Shown one piece after another: positions 16,905 to 17,800 of a stretch of 64,000 nucleotides of DNA. Location: positions 9,409,720-9,473,719 of the forward strand of contig OZ029927.1 in NCBI GenBank assembly GCA_964023275.1. Direction: 5' to 3'. The notes beneath the pieces were generated by a model. That model ran no database searches and was not told the DNA's origin. It saw nothing but the letters and a program-made list of their open reading frames with translations. A program made the position numbers and the translations under genes. The DNA comes from Norana najaformis. Taxonomy: Eukaryota; Annelida; Clitellata; Crassiclitellata; Hormogastridae. Each line of letters begins with the position of its first letter. Positions within the stretch are counted from its first letter, which is position 1.

Positions 16905-17800
16905 CAAAGATGATGAAACCCCCACCAGAATTAGGACAATTACCTGATCCATCATATGAACTCACCAACACTTCACCTCTTGCAATTTCTGCACAGGTCT
17001 TTCACTCAAGACTGAAAACATTCCTTTTTCACAATTCCTATCTCGATTCTTCCTCATCCCCTTATGTCATTTTTGGGTTCAGTTCCAAACACCACCCACT
17101 GTAGCCGCCTGCCTGCCTGCCTGCCTGCCTGCCTGCCTGCCTGCCTGCCTGCCTGCCTGCCTGCCTGCCTGCCTGCCTGCCTGCCTGCCTGCCTGCCTGC
17201 CTGCCTGCCTGCCTGCCTGCCTGCCTGCCTGCCTGCCTGCCTGCCTGCCTGCCTGCCTGCCTGCCTGCCTGCCTGCCTGCCTGCCTGCCTGCCTGCCTGC
17301 CTGCCTGCCTGCCTGCCTGCCTGCCTGCCTGCCTGCCTGCCTGCCTGCCTGCCTGCCTGCCTGCCTGCCTGCCTGCCTGCCTGCCTGCCTGCCTGCCTGC
17401 CTGCCTGCCTGCCTGCCTGCCTGCCTGCCTGCCTGCCTGCCTGCCTGCCTGCCTGCCTGCCTGCCTGCCTGCCTGCCTGCCTGCCTGCCTGCCTGCCTGC
17501 CTGCCTGCCTGCCTGCCTGCCTGCCTGCCTGCCTGCCTGCCTGCCTGCCTGCCTGCCTGCCTGCCTGCCTGCCTGCCTGCCTGCCTGCCTGCCTGCCTGC
17601 CTGCCTGCCTGCCTGCCTGCCTGCCTGCCTGCCTGCCTGCCTGCCTGCCTGCCTGCCTGCCTGCCTGCCTCTTGGATCTTGACATGGAACTGTACCCTTC
17701 CTGCCTATTGATTTTGTTTTGACTGAGCGCCTGTGTTCCAGCAATTTAGGTTTCATTGGGTGCTGTAGAAATCCCAAGCTTACGACTACAGTTATGATTA
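16905..17800 (+). mobile_element. LINE family A 3' end interrupted by a huge (CCTG)n
   Basis: RT C-terminal frame 16910-17104 (PPELGQL, SAQVFHSRLKTFLF, SSKHHPL, stop TAG at 17102-17104), then GCCG and (CCTG)n, then the family 3' UTR from 17670 (GGATCTTGACATGGAAC, TTTTGTTTTGACTGAGCGCC, GGGTGCTGTAGAAATCCCAA) and a GATTAC-like tail. Conserved family sequence on both sides shows the microsatellite grew inside the element. Confidence 0.9.
17107..17670 (+). repeat. (CCTG)n microsatellite, about 141 uninterrupted units
   Basis: 564 bp of perfect CCTG with no visible interruption. It sits exactly where other LINE A copies carry only CTGCCTGCCTG after the stop codon. The open frames on both strands (ACLP and RQAG repeats) are artefacts. 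Confidence 0.98.

Follow-up and report, generated by a model that had tools for sequence, protein, structure and literature searches.

In a window of 64,000 nucleotides from the annelid Norana najaformis (contig OZ029927.1), we found a perfect CCTG array at 17107-17670 on the forward strand, which lies within an apparently truncated copy of a long interspersed nuclear element (LINE) and probably grew from a short block of that element family's own sequence. Tandem Repeats Finder reported a period of 4, 141.0 copies, 100% matches and 0 indels, and a script recovered the same 564-bp perfect period-4 run, so that the earlier count of about 141 perfect units, made in a sequence-only reading of this DNA, was exact. 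When all perfect runs with a period of 1-6 were ranked over the whole window, the CCTG array was the longest, more than four times the next one, which is (AG)66 (132 bp, 44691-44822) and is followed by runs of 71 bp and 69 bp. That a perfect run of 564 bp would arise by chance is not plausible. All six reading frames are open across the array, with conceptual translations of LPAC for one strand and of QAGR for its complement.

The array abuts sequence of one repeat family on either side. The left flank (16913-17106, forward strand) is apparently the 3′ end of a 5′-truncated LINE open reading frame (ORF), FHSRLKTFLF...KHHPL, identified by nhmmer (16913-17131, E 1.3e-62) and by in-frame translation; the frame reads FHSRLKTFLFHNSYLDSSSSPYVIFGFSSKHHPL and is closed by a TAG at 17102-17104, and the array begins 2 nt later, at 17107, just after the stop codon as had been described. 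The right flank (17671-17799, forward strand) is the family's conserved 3′ untranslated region (UTR), with an ATTAC-type tail at its end (nhmmer 17645-17799, E 1.1e-46; motif at 17669-17687 with 2 mismatches), where CTCTTGGATCTTGACATGG and about 110 bp more agree with the family 3′ UTR. Each flank has a match in a sister copy, the left one at 81.6% over 190 bp (sister at 40791-40602) and the right one at 78.7% over 127 bp (sister at 45687-45813), which bears out the earlier statement that they are the family's own sequence.

Searching the window with a profile of the family's 3′ end (nhmmer) recovered the array-bearing copy, here called copy A, together with five sister copies, B to F, and the block between TAG and CTCCTGG was compared among them. 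Copy B (14262-14648, forward strand) carries TCTG ACTG TCTG CCTG CCTG at 14461-14480, and copy C (13657-13930, reverse strand) carries TCTG CCTG CCTG at 13806-13817 and is divergent beyond it. Copy D (40451-40810, reverse strand) has TCCG ACTG TCTG AGTG CCTG, with an open frame at 40606-41124 and its TAG at 40603-40605. Copy E (45681-45819, forward strand) starts immediately 3′ of the block, while copy F (46732-46913, forward strand) shows the TAG and then a degenerate block with one CCTG. The TAG is present in A, C, D and F and is not found in B. The same profile also matched part of a tail at 16070-16135 and, weakly, another at 50411-50484; these tail-only matches are weak and stop short of the block, and they were left out of the seed count.

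The site of the array is thus spanned by four of the five sisters (B, C, D and F), none of which contains a long array; the fifth, copy E, is truncated beyond it. Each of the four carries an NCTG-type block, with two CCTG units in two copies and one in the other two, and in copy A the array occupies the place of this block. The seed is therefore a degenerate NCTG block, such as TCTG ACTG TCTG CCTG CCTG in copy B. The sequence-only reading had named copies at 13665 and 14150 and held that the origin of the expansion could be read directly. The seed copies are real, and those positions lie near or in element copies, but the seeds themselves, CTGCCTGCCTG, are at 13806-13816 (reverse strand) and 14470-14480 (forward strand). 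The origin is indeed readable, but the seed is a degenerate NCTG run with two CCTG units in just two of the five other copies.

The flanks of copy A were compared with the sisters. There are 332 flank bases, of which 10 were dropped where fewer than two other copies were available and 126 where the other copies disagree, leaving 196 usable columns. Private substitutions were found in 20 of these (10.2%; 11 transitions and 9 transversions), or in 15 of 132 when at least three other copies were required, and when the reference was the simple majority of B-F, 49 of 289 flank columns were different in copy A. The corresponding private changes in the sisters are 43/218 in B, 12/143 in C, 13/190 in D, 2/74 in E and 14/96 in F. 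The array itself has 0 substitutions in 564 bp (95% upper bound, 0.53%), as compared to about 58 expected at the 10.2% flank rate. Because the flanks have accumulated changes and the array has none, we infer from its purity that the array in its present form arose long after the LINE insertion, or that it is continually homogenised by turnover.

Repeats of this kind are generally expected to grow by slippage or by recombination-type repair. We propose that, when the truncated LINE copy inserted, its stop codon was separated from its 3′ UTR by a short, degenerate NCTG block; such a block is seen in the sisters, and it was presumably present in copy A at insertion. Slippage or recombination-type expansion after insertion would then have brought the CCTG variant to 141 units, and the TCTG and ACTG variants would have been lost during expansion, as is suggested by an array free of substitutions between flanks in which about 10% or more of the positions have changed. 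We give this LINE-seeded origin, with post-insertion expansion of the family's NCTG block, a probability of about 0.8; the claim that a seed within the 3′ UTR of the family itself gave rise to the array is upheld by the flush family flanks and by the short NCTG-type run that the sisters carry at its place. The array is most likely functionless and unstable, and it is an ordinary LINE-seeded microsatellite whose length and purity are unusual for the window.

Several observations count against this origin or its timing. Only one family copy in the window bears an array, so the post-insertion date rests on purity, and constant turnover could clean an older array too. The sisters that hold two CCTG units remain unexpanded. 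Short CCTG runs are also not specific to the family, since the only other CCTG/CAGG run of at least 3 units in the window (3 units, 51804-51815) lies outside it. The folding of the repeat, calculated with DNA parameters, shows no unusual stability: (CCTG)20 folds at -3.4 kcal/mol, less stably than its own base shuffles (mean -9.2 for 200), and (CAGG)20 at -11.1 kcal/mol, about equal to its shuffles (mean -12.0 for 200). Hairpin-driven expansion as a special cause was therefore set aside, with neither energy below its shuffles and that of CCTG above them. CAGG folds more stably than CCTG, in agreement with work cited in PMC10849350, where CCTG/CAGG repeats in yeast are reported to show fragility and contraction linked to double-strand breaks.

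The array could instead have been long already in the LINE RNA, or have been made by reverse-transcriptase slippage at insertion, and so have arrived with the element. RTE-linked repeats in Lepidoptera have been proposed to arise by slippage in the course of retrotransposition (PMC2887409), and the second array described below stands at the equivalent site of what is probably a related element; but none of the four other copies spanning the site has a long array, and copy A's flanks carry 20 private changes in 196 columns against none in the 564-bp array, which makes this alternative improbable. It is very unlikely that assembly or polishing lengthened a shorter array: perfect arrays this long are hard to assemble and the length is known from the assembly, but family sequence joins both ends of the array at the position where the sisters carry their NCTG-type block, which makes the existence of some array very likely, even should its length be wrong.

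The second-longest perfect array of the window, (CT)66 on the reverse strand at 44691-44822, occupies the corresponding slot of another LINE that is probably related. It is bordered by an LKTYLF-type match at 44856 on one side and by CTCCTGGATACTGACCTGG at 44677-44659 on the other, so that it sits between LKTYLF and CTCCTGGAT; along the reverse strand the order is SFRSQLKTYLFQT (the regular-expression match at 44856), (CT)66 and GGACTGACCTCCTGGATACTGACCTGG. The motif CTCCTGGATCTTGACCTGG has 7 matches in the window at up to 3 mismatches, as compared to a mean of 0.00 in 100 shuffles, and six of them are copies A-F while the seventh is the (CT)66 element. An LKT-type regular expression run over the six frames of the window gave 3 matches (A, D and the (CT)66 element), each lying 5′ of a CTCCTGGATCTTGACCTGG-like motif. 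Among the 10 perfect runs of at least 36 bp, only the two longest terminate less than 30 bp 5′ of a copy of the motif, an arrangement of both that random placement produced in a fraction of 1.5e-5 of 200,000 trials; this adjacency test was devised after the match had been seen. ATTAC-type hexamers are found in the tails of both copy D and the (CT)66 element. The left homology of this element to the family extends over about 13 codons, and a blastn search of its 3′ flank against copies A-F, run with the low-complexity filter on, found no match at E up to 1. It probably belongs to a related family at most.

These matches suggest that the interval from the LKTxLF ORF end to CTCCTGGAT may be a recurrent microsatellite nursery in at least two related LINE families, in which a pyrimidine-rich or NCTG block has given rise repeatedly to long, pure arrays with differing motifs, a tentative reading that we hold at somewhat less than even odds. 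If it is true, the two longest perfect arrays of the window have one kind of birthplace. The (CT)66 match might instead be coincidental or reflect a separate event, with no recurrent slot, as would fit a test picked post hoc, a 3′ flank unlike those of copies A-F in the blastn search and a left homology of few codons; against this stand the three LKT-type matches out of three upstream of a CTCCTGGATCTTGACCTGG-like motif, the seven motif matches where 0.00 were expected, the rarity of the adjacency of both longest arrays under random placement and the tail hexamers common to copy D and the (CT)66 element. We regard coincidence or a separate event as unlikely; this alternative bears on the second array only.

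Elsewhere on the forward strand, at 4514-4703, a WNSLPDDL-type LINE ORF end (4514) precedes a TCTG/CT-rich array whose units are 35 bp long (4609-4703). This array may be a third case of the slot, and it was not counted as a member, being without the CTCCTGGAT motif at up to 3 mismatches. Two TCTG arrays were also rejected as members of the family: the one at 46120-46151 has no nhmmer match nearby, and for the one at 60251-60298 the match (60233-60281, E 0.11) is not significant.

We tentatively take the family to belong to a CR1/L2-like clade, a name that comes from the pattern of its ORF end (WNxLP, LKTxLF). Copy D terminates in three GATTAC-type hexamers, with less perfect ones in the other copies, and the copies begin at different points of the 3′ profile. 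A short 3′-terminal repeat tail and 5′-truncated copies are typical of CR1/L2-type elements, and they are not exclusive to that clade. A Pfam scan of the 173-aa ORF end of copy D, the one ORF end scanned, gave 0 families at E up to 0.1, neither a reverse transcriptase nor an endonuclease domain being seen in it; the copies are partial. In collections of viral and prokaryotic contigs, which have little bearing on an animal genome, the 28-base 3′ UTR pattern had 0 matches, and the 7 and 98 pattern stretches (viral and prokaryotic, respectively) found for the 173-aa ORF end included none that was confirmed by tblastn.

The seeding of microsatellites by LINEs and short interspersed nuclear elements is established, and the CCTG array is a clear example of this known process; what is distinctive here is its internal position and the fact that seed and product are both directly visible. 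CCTG is also the motif behind human myotonic dystrophy type 2 (DM2), and the parallel with the CNBP repeat that the sequence-only reading had drawn is closer than claimed, as the CNBP/ZNF9 CCTG repeat is itself reported to have its origin in the tail of an AluSx retroelement, with a disease range of 75-11,000 units (PMC3378579). The two share a CCTG repeat arising from retroelement-derived sequence with TCTG-type steps, whereas the source described there (PMC3378579) is an AluSx tail and here it is an internal LINE block. LPAC and QAGR, the tetrapeptides named for DM2 (PMC13225714), are also what the open frames of our array would read.

Microsatellite families derived from RTE elements in Lepidoptera resemble the present case in involving a LINE 3′ end, simple repeats beside the ORF end and often truncated copies (PMC2887409). 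However, the 3′ UTR of those elements is described as extremely short and itself regularly consists of the repeats (PMC2887409), while here the array is internal, with about 130 bp of the conserved 3′ UTR beyond it. LINE-linked seeding of a simple-repeat motif, AATAG in that case, is also described for squamate CR1-L3 and Rex LINEs (PMC6050309), as compared to one internal array in the 64-kb window here.

The birth of a repeat is often inferred after the seed has been lost, while here unexpanded sister seeds, family flanks and the full array are present in one window. The genome probably has further dispersed copies of this seed elsewhere, and if so they would serve as a natural experiment that shows which seeds expand, at what time, and out of which pattern of interruptions. 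Another dispersed repeat, with four copies in the window (15291-15333, 24417-24458 and 55301-55342 on the forward strand and 45209-45250 on the reverse strand), has runs of 2 to 4 GTAA units, each preceding a CATTTGTKAACA sequence common to the copies; these tetranucleotide seeds are still short.

Other features of the window include a further dispersed repeat, about 55 bp long, found at six sites or more (15036-15092, 18442-18498 and 47806-47852 on the forward strand; 19602-19656, 30527-30580 and 36797-36849 on the reverse strand) and a 68-bp minisatellite at 21726-22234 with 7.5 copies at a 99% match. An apparently complete, intronless frame for an aminergic G-protein-coupled receptor with seven transmembrane segments lies at 11336-12718 on the forward strand (Pfam 7tm_1, E 1.5e-75) and gives the window the look of animal DNA; its best relatives of solved structure are the serotonin receptors 5-HT7 and 5-HT1A.
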